This document shows, in pieces, positions 16,733-41,719 of a stretch of DNA of 64,000 nucleotides. The stretch covers positions 682,001-746,000 of the forward strand of contig NZ_CAAHFG010000002.1 of the NCBI RefSeq assembly GCF_900890425.1, given 5' to 3'. The notes beneath the pieces were generated by a model. The model had not been told where the DNA came from and made no database searches. It worked only from the letters and a program-made list of their open reading frames with translations. Source of the DNA: Pontiella desulfatans (GTDB lineage: Bacteria; Verrucomicrobiota; Kiritimatiellia; Kiritimatiellales; Pontiellaceae). Numbering within the stretch: position 1 is the first letter of the stretch; each line of letters begins with the position of its first letter. Position numbers and translations under genes: made by a program.

Positions 16733-16763
16733 ATTAGATGAGTCATTGTGTAGAGTTCTTTGC

Positions 16764-17153
16764 ATGAGCACTCTATCACTGGATCTACGCCAGAGAATTC
16801 TGGCCACCTACGATGCCGGAGAAGGAACCCGGCAGGACATTGCTGACCGATACAAGGTATCGCTTGGTATGGTAAAGAAGCTCCTCTCGCAACGGAAGCG
16901 AACCGGCGATATCGCCCCGCTTCACAGCCATTCAGGAAGAAAACCCTACTTCACCCAAGAGCACCGGAAGCAGATGAAAACGCTGATTGATCGGCAACCT
17001 GATATCACGTTGTGGGAGATCCGAGAGCAACTGGAGCTCGATTGCACGCTGCCTGCCATTCACTATGTACTCAAGGACATGGGGATGAGCTTTAAAAAAA
17101 ACGCTTCACGCCAGCGAGCAAGGGCGCGAAGACGTGAAACTCGCACGGGCTGA
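16764..17153 (+). CDS. IS630 transposase, frame A (N-terminal part)
   Basis: 129 aa. Helix-turn-helix DNA-binding half: LSLDLRQRILATYDAGEGTR, IADRYKVSLGMVKKLL, then a linker and a second HTH (WEIREQLELDCTLPAIHYVL). The start is ATG 16764. Frame A carries KKN past a run of eight A (17094-17101) and ends soon after in an unrelated Arg-rich tail, which is expected when a +1 shift at the A-run is needed to make the full transposase. Confidence 0.88.
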   Translation: MSTLSLDLRQRILATYDAGEGTRQDIADRYKVSLGMVKKLLSQRKRTGDIAPLHSHSGRKPYFTQEHRKQMKTLIDRQPDITLWEIREQLELDCTLPAIHYVLKDMGMSFKKNASRQRARARRRETRTG

Positions 17154-17700
17154 GTGGATGGCCATGCAAGGGCAACTTGACATTGCTCGGTTGGTCTTTA
17201 TTGATGAGGCTGGAGCCAAGACCAATATGACTCGGCTGTACGGACGCTCGCCGAAAAATGAGCGGGCTTACGATCACGCCCCGCATGGCCATTGGTGTAC
17301 CACCACCATGATCTCCTCCATTCGTTTCAACGGAGAAACAGCCTGCATGGCGATTGATGCCGCCACAAGCGGCGATGTATTCCGTGCCTATGTCGAACAG
17401 GTTCTAGCTCCGACTCTTCGAGTGGGCGATATCGTTGTGCTTGATAACCTCTCGGCTCATAAGGACAAGGCTTCGTTACAGTTGATCGAAGAAGCTGGGG
17501 CAGAGGTTTGGTTCCTTCCGCCCTACAGTCCTGATCTCAATCCCATCGAAAAGATGTGGAGCAAAGTAAAGCAATTGCTTCGCGGGGAAAAAGCGCGCTC
17601 CCTGGAATCTCTGTTTGATGCGATCGGCGCTGCCTTAGGGTGCGTTAGTGCGGCGGATGCTCAAGGTTGGTTTGCCTCATGCGGCTACAGTTTAAATTAA
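17134..17700 (+). CDS. IS630 transposase, frame B (DDE catalytic part)
   Basis: 188 aa as an open frame; the family reading actually enters this frame at the A8 run (17094-17101), giving KKTLHASEQGREDVKLARAE. The DDE catalytic triad is visible: D in LVFIDEAGAKTNM, D in IVVLDNLSAHKD and E in PDLNPIEKMWSKVK. This suggests programmed frameshifting or transcriptional slippage, as in other IS630 members. The copy looks intact and potentially active. Confidence 0.9.
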   Translation: MKLARAEWMAMQGQLDIARLVFIDEAGAKTNMTRLYGRSPKNERAYDHAPHGHWCTTTMISSIRFNGETACMAIDAATSGDVFRAYVEQVLAPTLRVGDIVVLDNLSAHKDKASLQLIEEAGAEVWFLPPYSPDLNPIEKMWSKVKQLLRGEKARSLESLFDAIGAALGCVSAADAQGWFASCGYSLN

Positions 17701-21361: not shown

Positions 21362-23608
21362 TTAGGCTTTTTTGCCGCGGCTGAGGATGGGGAGGAAGAC
21401 CAGGCGCGGGCAGATGAAGACGGCGACCAGTGCGATGGAGAGGCCGACGATGCCTTTGGTGGTTTCGGCCTGGGCCAGCGCCGGGGCAATGATGCCGATG
21501 CCGAGGAGCATCCAGAGGGTTAGAAGGCCGCGCATGTGGCGCCCCATGATCTGGGGGATGTTGAAGAAGAGGTCGAACACCCAGTGTTCGAGCAGGGCGC
21601 CGTGCTCCCCGAAGACCGGGATGATGTGTACGACGGAGGTGGCGCGGCGGCTGACGAGGAAGCGCGCGAGGTGCGGGTAGGTGGTGGTCATTTGCAACGG
21701 GAAGGCGAGATAGCCGATATATTTGACGAACGAGAGCGGTGCGGCCACGAGGTAGTCGCGCCAGTTGCGCTCGCGGATCATTAGATAAACCACGTAGAAG
21801 CCTCGGCACAGGGAGCCGGGGGAGATGGGGGTGACTTGGAAGAGGGCAACGATGCCGGCGAAGGCCAGCGATGCGTCGGATTTGTCGCCCGTCTTGTGGA
21901 AGACATAGGCCGCGACGAAAGCGCCGGTGATGACGCTGAAGATCTGGGTGACGGGAATGGTGCAGAAGTGGACTGCCATGCTTTTGAGGTATTTGACGAT
22001 GTAAGGTTCCTTGATGATGGAGACGATATGGTCGTGCTCCTCCCTGGTGAGCATGCCGTCGGCCTCGCCCTCGGCAACCTGGTCGAGGAACCACTTTTCG
22101 CGGAACGCTTCATCCTTGGCGAAGTCATAGATGAATTTGAAGAAGGCCACGAATCCGTTCCATGCGATAACCGGCCGGATGCAGAGGCGGTGAAGGCCGA
22201 TGGGCAGGAAGCCGACCGTGAAGCGCTCGAGGAAAAAGAGTCCGGGGTTATCTGCGAGCTTGCGGGTGCGCGTTTCGTCGGTGCGTCCGGCGCGGTGCCA
22301 GCCGATGAGGTCGTGCGCGGCGCGAGCCTTGAGAGCGGCCTTGAAATAGGCCGGTTTGGTGAAAATGCCAAGCATATGCTTGCGGAAGCTGCGGCTGCCC
22401 CAGCGCTGCCGGATCATCTTGCCGAGCAGCGGAACCGCGCCCAGCAGGTGGAAGAACGAGAACGTTAGGCCTCCTTTGCGCAGCGTTTCGGCAAAATCGT
22501 CATCGACGAGGTCGTCGGCCAGATAGCCTTCGACGAGGCCGTTGATCACATCCTGCCGCAACTCCTTGTCGAAGGTGGGGCGCAGGCCGTGGTGGGTGAT
22601 GTCCCAAAGCGACCGGCGATAGGCGCGATCCTGCACCTTGAGTTCGTCGATCATGGGTTGGACATCGGTAAACACCTCGGGATGGTCGGCCACATAGGCC
22701 TCCATCTTGGAGAGGTCGCAACGGTCGAACTGGACGAGGGCTCCGCGTTTCAGCCCGTTGAGGATGAGTTTGAAGTCGCCGGGGCTCATGGGCAGCCAGG
22801 GGAGCAGGGCGAGGCCGGCGCGGAAGTCGATGGCGCAGAGGCCGCCGTCCGCGGTGTCGGTTCGCTTCATGCAGTTGGGCTGGCTTTTCATGGTCGACCA
22901 TTCGTACTGCCGGGCAAACTCGGGGGCCCCCATGGCGTGCATCAGTTCAACCATGTCGCGCATGAAGCGGCGTTTGTCGACATACTCAGGGCTACCGGTC
23001 GCTTCCAGCGGGACATTTTTCCAGTCGAAGCGGCGGGAGATGTCTTCGTCGGCCTCGAGGTGCCACATGCGGCCTTCGACCCATTCGGTGATCTCGCCAT
23101 AGGCATTGAGGTTGGAATCCCAGAAGGAGGCATAGGCATCCTTCACGGCGGTTTCGCGGCCAAATTTGACGAGTCCGGCGCGGCGAACCAGCTTTTGCCA
23201 GAGCAACCCGGCGCGGCAGGCGCCATGGTTCACCTGCGAGCTGAACGGCCCTTGGAAGGCGAGCCAATAGGTGGTGTTGCGGAACCAGCGCGAAAAGCCG
23301 CTGGGGGGGATGACGATCTTTACGGCGTAGAGGTTGCCTTTTTCCAGCCCGGGAATGAACGTGCCTGCGGGAAGCTCAAGCCCCGTAAGTTTGCAGCGGT
23401 AGACCTGGCCGGCAAAACCGCCGCCGAGGAATTTATCGACCGTCAGCTCGGCTTTGCCGGAAATGGCAGGGAAGACCCCCGTGATGTCGATGGGCAGGAC
23501 GGTGCCTTTTTCATAGCGCACCGGGCGATGCTTGATGAGCAGTTGCGGATCGCCTGCGGCTTTTCCCAGTTCGTTGCAAAGTTCGGATGAATAGTCTTTT
23601 TTCGCCAT
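21362..23608 (-). CDS. Protein kinase-like membrane protein
   Basis: 748 aa from ATG 23608 (GGGGA upstream). The N-terminal 280 residues look like a divergent protein kinase or UbiB/ABC1 fold: a glycine-rich loop (LGGGFAGQVYRCKL, about 61-74), the VAIK-like lysine K97 in NLYAVKIVI, a possible catalytic-loop Asn in KSQPNCMKRT, and AIDFRAG (D261) in the DFG position. The second half is hydrophobic with several TM segments (about residues 540-748). A kinase-like head fused to a C-terminal multi-TM domain is unusual; membrane lipid or quinone phosphorylation or signalling are guesses. It stands alone with no partner gene adjacent. Confidence 0.6.
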   Translation of the reverse strand: MAKKDYSSELCNELGKAAGDPQLLIKHRPVRYEKGTVLPIDITGVFPAISGKAELTVDKFLGGGFAGQVYRCKLTGLELPAGTFIPGLEKGNLYAVKIVIPPSGFSRWFRNTTYWLAFQGPFSSQVNHGACRAGLLWQKLVRRAGLVKFGRETAVKDAYASFWDSNLNAYGEITEWVEGRMWHLEADEDISRRFDWKNVPLEATGSPEYVDKRRFMRDMVELMHAMGAPEFARQYEWSTMKSQPNCMKRTDTADGGLCAIDFRAGLALLPWLPMSPGDFKLILNGLKRGALVQFDRCDLSKMEAYVADHPEVFTDVQPMIDELKVQDRAYRRSLWDITHHGLRPTFDKELRQDVINGLVEGYLADDLVDDDFAETLRKGGLTFSFFHLLGAVPLLGKMIRQRWGSRSFRKHMLGIFTKPAYFKAALKARAAHDLIGWHRAGRTDETRTRKLADNPGLFFLERFTVGFLPIGLHRLCIRPVIAWNGFVAFFKFIYDFAKDEAFREKWFLDQVAEGEADGMLTREEHDHIVSIIKEPYIVKYLKSMAVHFCTIPVTQIFSVITGAFVAAYVFHKTGDKSDASLAFAGIVALFQVTPISPGSLCRGFYVVYLMIRERNWRDYLVAAPLSFVKYIGYLAFPLQMTTTYPHLARFLVSRRATSVVHIIPVFGEHGALLEHWVFDLFFNIPQIMGRHMRGLLTLWMLLGIGIIAPALAQAETTKGIVGLSIALVAVFICPRLVFLPILSRGKKA

Positions 23609-23836
23609 GTGTTCCCCGTTGAAAATGCAAAACAGCCGGAACCATGCCAAACCCCGCTTCCAATAACAAACCCTATGGAAGTTAAAAGGTGGCGGGGTTC
23701 CCTTGGCGGCCATCGGGGAGCGGATGTGTGTTTCCAAGTGTTTCGCTTCAGGTTGTTTAACCTTATTGGGACTTGCCACAAACAATGCTTTCTATAATGG
23801 TTCTAAGTATCCGTCGATGCATTGGAGCTGTTATTT

Positions 23837-25783
23837 ATGGAAAATATTGGAGCAACTTGTTTTGCGATAGCCGTTGCCAGCCTGTGCTGCGTAGGCGAAA
23901 TCATGGCTTCAGCCACGACGGCTCCTGTCTTTATCACCGGTACATCCAGCAACGACACGCTGTATGGAACGGCGGGAAACGACTGCATCGATGGCCTTGA
24001 AGGCGGCGATGTGATGATCGGGCTTGGGGGGGATGATTACTACTACGTTGATCACGAGCAGGATACCGTGGTTGAAAATCCGGACGAAGGTTTCGATACC
24101 GTTGAGTTGAAGTTTTGTTTCTGGACGAACATGAACGGCTGGCTGAATTCGGAGATCTATTCCATACCCACGAATGTGGAAAAGGTGGTCATGGGGCAGG
24201 ATGCGTTCGACGTGGTTGAGTTTGCATCCAACACGCTCGCGCATGTGTATGGCGATCCGATCGATTGGCGCGACCGACTGGACGATAATCAGTTCGATAA
24301 TGCCAGCAATTTGGTGAACACCTGCACGATGGCCTCAATCGCCAATGTGATGACCATGCTCGGTGAAGTGATCACGGAAGAAGAGGTGATTGCATACATG
24401 TACGCCAATGATTTGGTGGGGAACCGCGCCCGGGGGGATACGGATCCTGCCAATGTGGCCGTTGCGCTTGAAAGTGGATATGGTTGCGAGGTCTCGCTGT
24501 TAACGAATCGCCCGATGCCGGAAGTGGCGGAATACCTTGAAAGCGGGAAGGCCATCATCCTGGGGGTGGATTACGGCGTTGTGAATGTAAATGCGTCTCC
24601 CCGGGGCTATGACGACCACGCGATCACCCTCACCGGTGTGGCCTACAACGAAATGACCGGTGAACTCGAGGGATTCTATTATTGCGACAGCGGCGACGAA
24701 ACCAATCCATCCGGAGCGTCCTTCATGTCGACCAGCCTCTACCACGAGGCGCACGGACAGTATGTGCCTGACGGGAATTATCCGGGGGCCCAGATCGTCG
24801 TGGTGGACTTCCCCTTGAAGATCCAACGCGACAGTTTCCGGGTGGAAGGCTCCGTCGGCGGCAGTCCTGCAATCATTGGCAACAGCGGCGACAACGTGAT
24901 CTGGACAACGGATGGCAATGATTATGCCGAGGGCGGCAAGGGAAACGATGTGTTCCACGACGAGACCGGAGGCAACGATGTGTTCCTTCCCGGCGAAGGC
25001 AACGATGTTGTCCATAGTTTTTCCGGTGCCGATAGTTTTGTCTTTTCGGAAGGCGGCGGTATCGATGAGGTCATCGATACAGATGCCGATCTTGACGAAC
25101 TGGTATTCGATGCGAGCGTCGACAAGGCTGGCATGGTTCTGGGACTGGATGGCAGCGATCTATGGGTGGCCTATGGCAGTAATGATCGGGTTCGGGTGTC
25201 CGGTTATGACAATGGGTATGGTTTCTCGATTCGTATGGCGGATGGCACAGCACTTGAGCCTTCCGCCTTATCGAACCTGGTTGCACAAATGGAAGCCTAT
25301 TGTGGAACCAACGGCATCGATTTTTCCGACCCTGCGGCGGTGCAGGCCGACTCCAACCTCGTTGCCATGATACAGGGCGGTTGGCGGCAGGATACGAATG
25401 CAATCAACTACCAGGCATGGATTGCCATGCACGCCGTGGGGCACGCATCGAGCGGCTATGCGCAGGCGCCGGCGGGCGATGGCGTGGGAAACCTCCTCAA
25501 ATATGCCGCCGGTTTTTCGCCCTTCGTTCCGGTCGCGGCCAGCAACCTCTTCACGTTTGCCGGCGATTCCTCCACCGGGCGCTTCAAAATGGTCTACGCC
25601 CAATCCAGGCGCGCCAACGCTTCCCTGGTGCCGGAATGGTCGGCCTCGCTCACCAACGGTTGGCAAGCGGGAGGCATTCAGACCATCATTCTCAACGAAA
25701 CCTCGACGAATGAGTTGCGGGAAGCGTCCGTCCCGTTGGGGCAGACGGGCTTCATGCGCCTTCGCGCCGTGCTGGAGGAATAG
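23837..25783 (+). CDS. Secreted RTX protein with an embedded C39-like cysteine peptidase domain
   Basis: 648 aa from ATG 23837 (GGAG nine bases upstream; a TATAAT box at 23793-23798). After the signal region come RTX calcium-binding nonapeptides (GTAGNDCIDGLEGGD, GLGGDDYYYVD). A papain/C39-like domain follows with C163 in NTCTMASIANVM, H261 in YDDHAITLTGV and D284 in YYCDSGDE. Then come a second RTX block (GNSGDNVIWTTDGNDYAEGG, TGGNDVFLPGEGNDVV) and a C-terminal PVC-type domain (GVGNLLKYAAGFSP). The order suggests a calcium-dependent exported protease or self-processing protein. No type I secretion genes are in the window. Confidence 0.75.
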   Translation: MENIGATCFAIAVASLCCVGEIMASATTAPVFITGTSSNDTLYGTAGNDCIDGLEGGDVMIGLGGDDYYYVDHEQDTVVENPDEGFDTVELKFCFWTNMNGWLNSEIYSIPTNVEKVVMGQDAFDVVEFASNTLAHVYGDPIDWRDRLDDNQFDNASNLVNTCTMASIANVMTMLGEVITEEEVIAYMYANDLVGNRARGDTDPANVAVALESGYGCEVSLLTNRPMPEVAEYLESGKAIILGVDYGVVNVNASPRGYDDHAITLTGVAYNEMTGELEGFYYCDSGDETNPSGASFMSTSLYHEAHGQYVPDGNYPGAQIVVVDFPLKIQRDSFRVEGSVGGSPAIIGNSGDNVIWTTDGNDYAEGGKGNDVFHDETGGNDVFLPGEGNDVVHSFSGADSFVFSEGGGIDEVIDTDADLDELVFDASVDKAGMVLGLDGSDLWVAYGSNDRVRVSGYDNGYGFSIRMADGTALEPSALSNLVAQMEAYCGTNGIDFSDPAAVQADSNLVAMIQGGWRQDTNAINYQAWIAMHAVGHASSGYAQAPAGDGVGNLLKYAAGFSPFVPVAASNLFTFAGDSSTGRFKMVYAQSRRANASLVPEWSASLTNGWQAGGIQTIILNETSTNELREASVPLGQTGFMRLRAVLEE

Positions 25784-25852
25784 GTCCGTCCTGCCTGAAT
25801 GCATGCCGATTTCGCTTGAATTGAGGGTCGGCCTTGCACATATTCCACCGAT

Positions 25853-25975
25853 CTTCAGGGCAGGGTGAAATTCCCGACCGGCGGTGACAGTCCGCGAGTT
25901 GGTCCGATGTTCGGAACAACAGGATGCAGTGGAATTCTGCGACCGACAGTATAGTCTGGATGAGAGAAGATTGTG
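25853..25975 (+). ncRNA. FMN riboswitch (RFN element)
   Basis: The conserved RFN core is readable: CAGGGTGAAATTCCCGACC, GGCGGT, AGTCCGCGAG, then GATGCAGTGGAATTCTGCGACCG broken by variable bases, and the closing ACAGTATAGTCTGGATGAGAG. It lies directly upstream of ribBA with an intrinsic terminator between. FMN binding should favour the terminator and shut down the riboflavin genes. Confidence 0.95.
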
Positions 25976-41587: not shown

Positions 41588-41680
41588 GCAACCTTGTTCG
41601 CTAGGGGAGTCGGCGGTGCCGACTGAGATTCCAACCCTTGGAACCTGTGCGGGTTATGCCGCGAAGGGAAGCGAGGTTGC
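41588..41680 (+). ncRNA. TPP riboswitch (THI element)
   Basis: The THI-box core is readable: CTAGGGGAGTCGGC, GCCGACTGAGATTCCAA, then CCCTTGGAACCTGTGCGGGT with TATGCCGCGAAGGGAAGC. The outer stem is GCAACCT with AGGTTGC. It sits about 60 bp upstream of thiC, so thiamine pyrophosphate should repress thiC. Confidence 0.95.
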
Positions 41681-41719
41681 CCTCCTTCATGTTTCCGTTT
41701 GCGAACAATTAACGATTAA

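Follow-up and report, generated by a model that had tools for sequence, protein, structure and literature searches.

A widespread membrane protein family with a kinase-like head as a candidate replacement for the undecaprenyl-diphosphate phosphatase UppP/BacA

Cell-wall building cannot do without recycling of the lipid carrier C55-P, the step blocked by bacitracin. In Escherichia coli, BacA is described as the main phosphatase of undecaprenyl diphosphate (C55-PP), and the joint loss of bacA, pgpB and ybjG as lethal (PMC4790310, PMC6748449). Two unrelated classes of enzymes, BacA and PAP2, are described for the C55-PP step, as is LpxT, which transfers phosphate from C55-PP to an acceptor (PMC4790310); the PAP2 enzymes are reported to be able to cover the UppP activity (PMC6748449, PMC4790310).

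The gene discussed here, for which we use the working name X, encodes a 748-aa product and is the minus-strand open reading frame 23608..21362 of the window, i.e. of the whole analysed stretch of 64,000 nucleotides of the Pontiella desulfatans genome. In the reading of this frame, the ATG is located at 23608 and the stop codon at 21362-21364, on the minus strand. A GGGGA stretch whose first base is nine bases upstream of the ATG supports the start, as do the relatives, whose own starts mostly have the form M(A/G)K..YS. The parts of the gene are listed below in window coordinates, the invariant positions being counted over an alignment of 51 members (the window protein and 50 of the 80 relatives kept for analysis).

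21362..23608, minus strand: whole gene X, 748 aa and stop; kinase-like head and membrane core, start conserved in relatives
22709..23533, minus strand: kinase-like head, residues 26-300; supported by a model and a structural match, 50/275 positions invariant
23399..23425, minus strand: glycine loop GGGFAGQVY, residues 62-70; GGG[FY]AGQVY in 51/51
23318..23320, minus strand: VAIK-type lysine K97; invariant, 51/51
22874..22894, minus strand: catalytic-loop position TMKSQPN, residues 239-245; HRD Asp replaced, Asn kept
22820..22828, minus strand: DFG-like DFR, residues 261-263; D261, F262 and R263 invariant, 51/51
22139..22708, minus strand: helical linker, residues 301-490; internal repeat by hhalign, 7/190 positions invariant
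21530..22138, minus strand: membrane core, residues 491-693; hydrophobic segments, common to the compact paralogues, 36/203 positions invariant
21800..21829, minus strand: PISPGSLCRG motif, residues 594-603; candidate phosphate-handling loop
21365..21529, minus strand: variable C-terminal membrane tail, residues 694-748; 0/55 positions invariant

The sequence-only reading of this DNA had described a head followed by a membrane part. This order stands, with the refinement that the linker (301-490) separates the head (26-300) from the core (491-693). Comparison of X with five close relatives gave dN/dS values of 0.08-0.21, and both the head and the core are under strong constraint.

In the window, X is divergent from an RTX/C39-type protein gene and a riboflavin operon, a neighbourhood which by itself would suggest no function. 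The divergent neighbour (23822-25783, plus strand) encodes 653 aa, with calcium-binding repeats of the RTX type and a peptidase domain resembling C39. An FMN riboswitch (25847-25975, plus strand, 113.4 bits) lies directly upstream of the ribBA-like gene, the identity of which rests on an orthologous locus, and a TPP riboswitch was found at 41593-41686 (plus strand, 58.3 bits). Two overlapping frames at 16746-17700 (plus strand) jointly read as a transposase, which we take to belong to the IS630-type family.

As to the affiliation of X, neither Pfam nor NCBIfam nor PHROGs contained a matching family at E up to 1, and the search of PDB sequences gave no match by phmmer and four chance-level matches by profile, in agreement with the initial statement that no named family has this layout. 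A weak and single match to a PADLOC methyltransferase (E 0.027) was taken as chance. When the 51 aligned members were compared with Pfam, 16 weakly matching families, scattered and including no kinase, were retrieved. No relative was found in the viral contigs, phages and plasmids searched, and no description of the family in the literature searched, as judged by titles and abstract openings. Matches to X are present in 21 of 58 related genomes and in 15 of 387 genomes sampled across the phylum (the window's own genome being counted in both), while among 280 candidate stretches of GTDB contigs 219 relatives were recognized, 80 of which were kept for analysis. One of these (L092), containing a masked stretch, was left out of the alignments and is present with masked letters in the set of 81 proteins used below. 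According to the record titles, some of which may reflect misbinning, the 80 relatives include members of Kiritimatiellota, Lentisphaerota, Verrucomicrobiota, Planctomycetota, Desulfobacterales, Aminicenantes, Cloacimonadota, Latescibacterota, Zixibacteria, Acidobacteria, Armatimonadetes and Pseudomonadota. In terms of sequence similarity, X belongs to a large family, spread over many phyla and without a name in the libraries searched. Each of nine genomes searched has one copy of X; a full-length copy is present in the cultured Pontiella sulfatireligans F21 (L037). A very distant relative (L030, 1396-3522, minus strand) shows 20% identity, a glycine loop and IDLESG, and has no Pfam match. In other phyla the operon partners of X include DHH-like, SixA-like, enoyl-CoA hydratase, polysaccharide deacetylase and riboflavin genes; outside Planctomycetota these partners are lineage-specific and have no common theme.

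Within Planctomycetota, a number of X genes are linked to PgpA. The 80 X loci contain 14 separate PgpA genes, and a six-frame search yielded 19 PgpA-bearing loci, all from Planctomycetota; in the loci from outside this phylum the same search found no PgpA near X, and in the genome of the window PgpA is located about 430 kb from X on the same contig. Among 198 Phycisphaerae-class genomes, 47 have a match to X and 170 have PgpA, including all 47. Of the 48 X copies, 34 have PgpA no more than 3 kb away, 12 have it on another contig and 2 have it at a greater distance. In the 34 close pairs, PgpA precedes X in the same direction in 21 and follows it in convergent orientation in 11, and the other 2 are fusions. 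Each of these fusions, which come from two genomes, is one uninterrupted frame (878 and 862 aa), with a PgpA domain (PF04608, E 1.8e-33 and 3.9e-28) at the place of the C-terminal tail of X. In the tree of X (from which L234 of G457, represented by an antisense frame, was left out) separate deep branches carry the two fusions, L108, the clade with convergent PgpA and the clade with upstream PgpA. One genome (G612) has two X copies on different contigs, each with its own PgpA upstream, and these may be either linked duplicates or a trace of mixed strains.

PgpA adjacency in three geometries together with the two fusions, as well as the presence of PgpA in every X genome of this class, could mean that X acts with PgpA in phosphatidylglycerol synthesis, in which case the mutual exclusion of X and BacA, described below, would be a by-product of the lineage history of one locus. 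This explanation, which we favoured at first, was put back because PgpA accompanies BacA where X is absent. A PgpA frame of about 460 aa is present in several X-lacking genomes; a one-frame PgpA-BacA/UppP fusion of 458-465 aa was read in three loci (L269, L270 and L271), and equal open-frame lengths indicate such a fusion in 11 of the 198 genomes. PgpA therefore looks like the constant neighbour, linked to BacA where X is missing. Considering also that proximity of X to PgpA was seen only in Planctomycetota loci, we regard a role of X in phosphatidylglycerol synthesis as quite unlikely.

The distribution of BacA (PF02673) in the same class is almost complementary to that of X. BacA is present in 149 of the 198 genomes and missing from 49; X without BacA was found in 46 genomes, BacA alone in 148, neither in three, and BacA together with a weak partial match to X in one. 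This sole exception (G613) has a match restricted to residues 485-677 (E 1.9e-9), resembling the short relatives described below, so that full-length X and BacA occur together in 0 of the 198 genomes. With the genomes treated as unrelated, Fisher's test gives p of about 1e-40 for this exclusion; the genomes share kinship, and the independent swaps between X and BacA are fewer than the counts. As for the three genomes with neither gene (G441, G569 and G578), they either are incomplete or use another C55-PP phosphatase. In Phycisphaerae, X mostly adjoins PgpA or is fused to it, i.e. is found at the place held elsewhere by UppP. At one locus (L072), PgpA runs in frame into the first BacA motif and stops, and X starts 9 bases later; this stub is the only truncated BacA found in the loci scanned.

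The membrane core is the common denominator of the family, since three compact relatives (L028, L029 and L031; 475, 492 and 467 aa) keep the core motifs PxSPGS and GYMAFPLQM while their kinase-like head is degraded. Its invariant or nearly invariant polar motifs are H547..T550..P552..T554-Q555, Q591..PISPGSxxRG, GYLxFPxQM and PxFGExGALxEH; Q591, P594, S596, P597, G598, S599, R602 and G603 are invariant in the 51 sequences. Within the linker, residues of about 338-410 align with 408-492 as a repeat (hhalign P 2.2e-7). The model of residues 296-748 found no PDB match by Foldseek at E up to 0.001 (the best being 0.81), and its best Z, 7.9, was to a designed helical protein; such an absence of a match is not a proof of a new fold.

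X and BacA share the genomic place beside PgpA and, in Phycisphaerae, the excluding phyletic pattern; besides, both have a Q-x5-PG spacing before a Ser/Arg-containing loop, and this Gln-to-PG spacing of the X loop is suggestive of a resemblance to BacA at the level of sequence. X differs in having the added kinase-like head and a loop of the form PISPGSxxRG, rather than PGxSRSxxT, and neither X nor any of the 51 members matches PF02673. The core might be a diverged BacA, and profiles were compared with this in mind. Comparison of the core with a BacA profile, built from the 17 of 22 BacA loci that passed a motif filter, gave an hhalign P of 0.025, the best of the 7 profiles compared and not significant. 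With hmmsearch --max, 7 of the 81 proteins fell below 0.01, against 3 of 81 when reversed, while each of two shuffled sets gave 0 of 81.

Being present where BacA is missing, located at the place of BacA and having a conserved core with an invariant Ser/Arg loop, X is a strong candidate for a BacA replacement. We therefore propose, tentatively and giving it slightly less than an even chance, that X may be a membrane enzyme, from a family not yet named, replacing the undecaprenyl-diphosphate phosphatase UppP/BacA. For the X of the window the argument is its full-length homology to the members from Planctomycetota, with which it shares 44-50% identity. The membrane core would convert C55-PP to the carrier C55-P, and this chemistry could be accomplished by the invariant PISPGSxxRG loop and the nearby invariant Gln, His and Glu residues. 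The head would bind Mg-ATP or ADP and either gate the core or take part in phosphate transfer.

The properties of the head are as follows. GGGFAGQVY (62-70), K97 and AIDFRAG (259-265) occur in X in that order, as the sequence-only reading had noticed, and a loose pattern for the three motifs in order was found in only 2 of 20,000 shuffles of the protein. These motifs are conserved in the relatives: GGG[FY]AGQVY and TxKSQPN are present in 51 of the 51 aligned members, and a DF(R/G)(A/P)G-like motif in 50, with G62, G64, G67, K97, N245 and D261 being invariant. At position 240, the place of the HRD aspartate if the register to HRDLKPEN is set by spacing, the 51 sequences have Cys (24), Met (13), Leu (9) or Trp (5), and at the presumed helix-C position, where Glu is usual, 50 of them have Gln (Q138 in X). 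The AlphaFold model (pLDDT 84.9, pTM 0.80), compared with PDB by VIA-align, matched best the kinase HIPK2 (7ncf) over residues 28-299 with Z 10.2 (rmsd 3.4, 164 residues aligned), followed near Z 9 by GSK3-beta, YabT and alpha-kinases; the best E of Foldseek was 2.7e-4. The head is thus predicted to have a protein-kinase-like bilobal fold, which bears out the kinase-like head suggested from the motifs, and, judging from model and alignment together, it appears to be a kinase fold devoid of the HRD aspartate with its putative nucleotide- and metal-binding residues kept. The original interpretation of the motifs itself stands; it did not include the loss of the HRD aspartate, the spread of the family, the link to PgpA or the exclusion of UppP.

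Profile comparison of the head by hhalign gave P of 0.005 with ABC1/UbiB, 0.024 with Pkinase and 0.29 with APH, against 0.08-0.67 for nine unrelated families and 1e-9 to 5e-6 for the kinase families compared among themselves (the profiles were built from 20 of 21 ABC1, 18 of 23 Pkinase and 23 of 24 APH proteins; two further loci had no ORF). UbiB/ABC1 is thus the nearest known kinase family to the head, at a score that is not significant. No Pfam kinase family, PF00069 included, matches any of the 51 members at E up to 1, and a loop of any HxD...N form, which would bear the HRD aspartate, occurs in 0 of 51, against 18 of 23 Pkinase controls with HRDxKxxN; X was accordingly rejected as a Ser/Thr kinase of PF00069. 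Both UbiB/COQ8 and X combine a kinase-like fold with a membrane part and have the aspartate of DF(G/R), and hhalign aligns the GQVY following the nucleotide loop and the lysine strand. However, KxGQ before the nucleotide loop is found in 0 of 51 members (17 of 21 ABC1 controls carry KxGQ anywhere), the catalytic loop HxDxHPxN in 0 of 51 (20 of 21 controls), and the nucleotide loop is the glycine-rich GGG[FY]AGQVY in 51 of 51 instead of the A-rich loop of UbiB. For the latter a loose pattern is a weak test, matching 2 of 51 X members elsewhere and only 6 of 21 ABC1 controls. The membrane core of X is, moreover, large and conserved, and there is no Pfam match. With all three hallmarks failing, membership of X in UbiB/ABC1 (PF03109) was rejected, so that of the initial suggestion of a kinase or UbiB-like fold only the former part is upheld.

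The ATP and Mg ligands kept in the head, together with UbiB/ABC1 as the best-scoring, albeit not significant, kinase family, leave some room for X to handle the carrier lipid without being a phosphatase, namely as an ATP-binding regulator, a UbiB/COQ8-like lipid extractor or an undecaprenol kinase. C55-PP would then be dephosphorylated by PAP2 enzymes, for which coverage of the UppP activity was mentioned above. Such a role, which we consider rather unlikely, leaves unexplained both the exclusion of BacA and the location of X at the BacA site, and fits poorly with the absence of the UbiB hallmarks.

As for SelO, its catalytic loop reads HGVMNTDNM in SelO sequences, and it is not known to carry a membrane core like that of X. 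SelO is described as having a hydrophobic residue at the HRD Asp, with the Asn and Asp kept (PMC3281104), and X likewise has a non-acidic residue at this position and keeps the Asn and the DFG-type Asp. X is about as far from the named kinase families as SelO is, given the similarly weak profile scores (P 0.03-0.21 for SelO against ABC1, Pkinase and APH). The two, however, share no profile similarity (P 0.39 over the kinase region), and X was rejected as a member of SelO (PF02696) by profile. The common signature would be consistent with a head that is active through unusual catalysis, as a kinase or AMP transferase whose protein or lipid target has nothing to do with C55-PP, as turned out to be the case for the activity of SelO itself; apart from the lack of profile similarity, such an activity does not account for the link to BacA and PgpA, and we find it very unlikely. 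Bacterial transmembrane pseudokinases, such as the EssB/YukC, mycobacterial MviN and ActPs families, are also membrane proteins with a kinase-like domain lacking catalytic motifs; they are described as belonging to the Ser/Thr kinase group, several of them without nucleotide-binding motifs (PMC12599244). In contrast to them, X keeps the nucleotide-binding motifs and matches no Pkinase model.

Returning to X as a replacement of UppP/BacA, we also considered a particular version of it, a nucleotide-coupled C55-PP phosphotransferase, in which the head would pass the phosphate to ADP (C55-PP + ADP -> C55-P + ATP) or to another acceptor. The loss of the HRD aspartate along with the invariance of the ATP and metal ligands would be understandable in this case, since transfer to a phosphate as the acceptor does not depend on a general base. 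Although we hold such coupling to be highly improbable, if it is true, the C55-PP bond would not be wasted, and X would represent a new class of carrier-lipid recycling beside BacA and PAP2.

If X does replace UppP/BacA, it would be a third class of C55-PP enzymes, with a kinase-shaped nucleotide-binding head, distributed in many uncultured sediment phyla. Carrier recycling in these organisms could then be coupled to cellular energy status, and a large unnamed family would be assigned a function.
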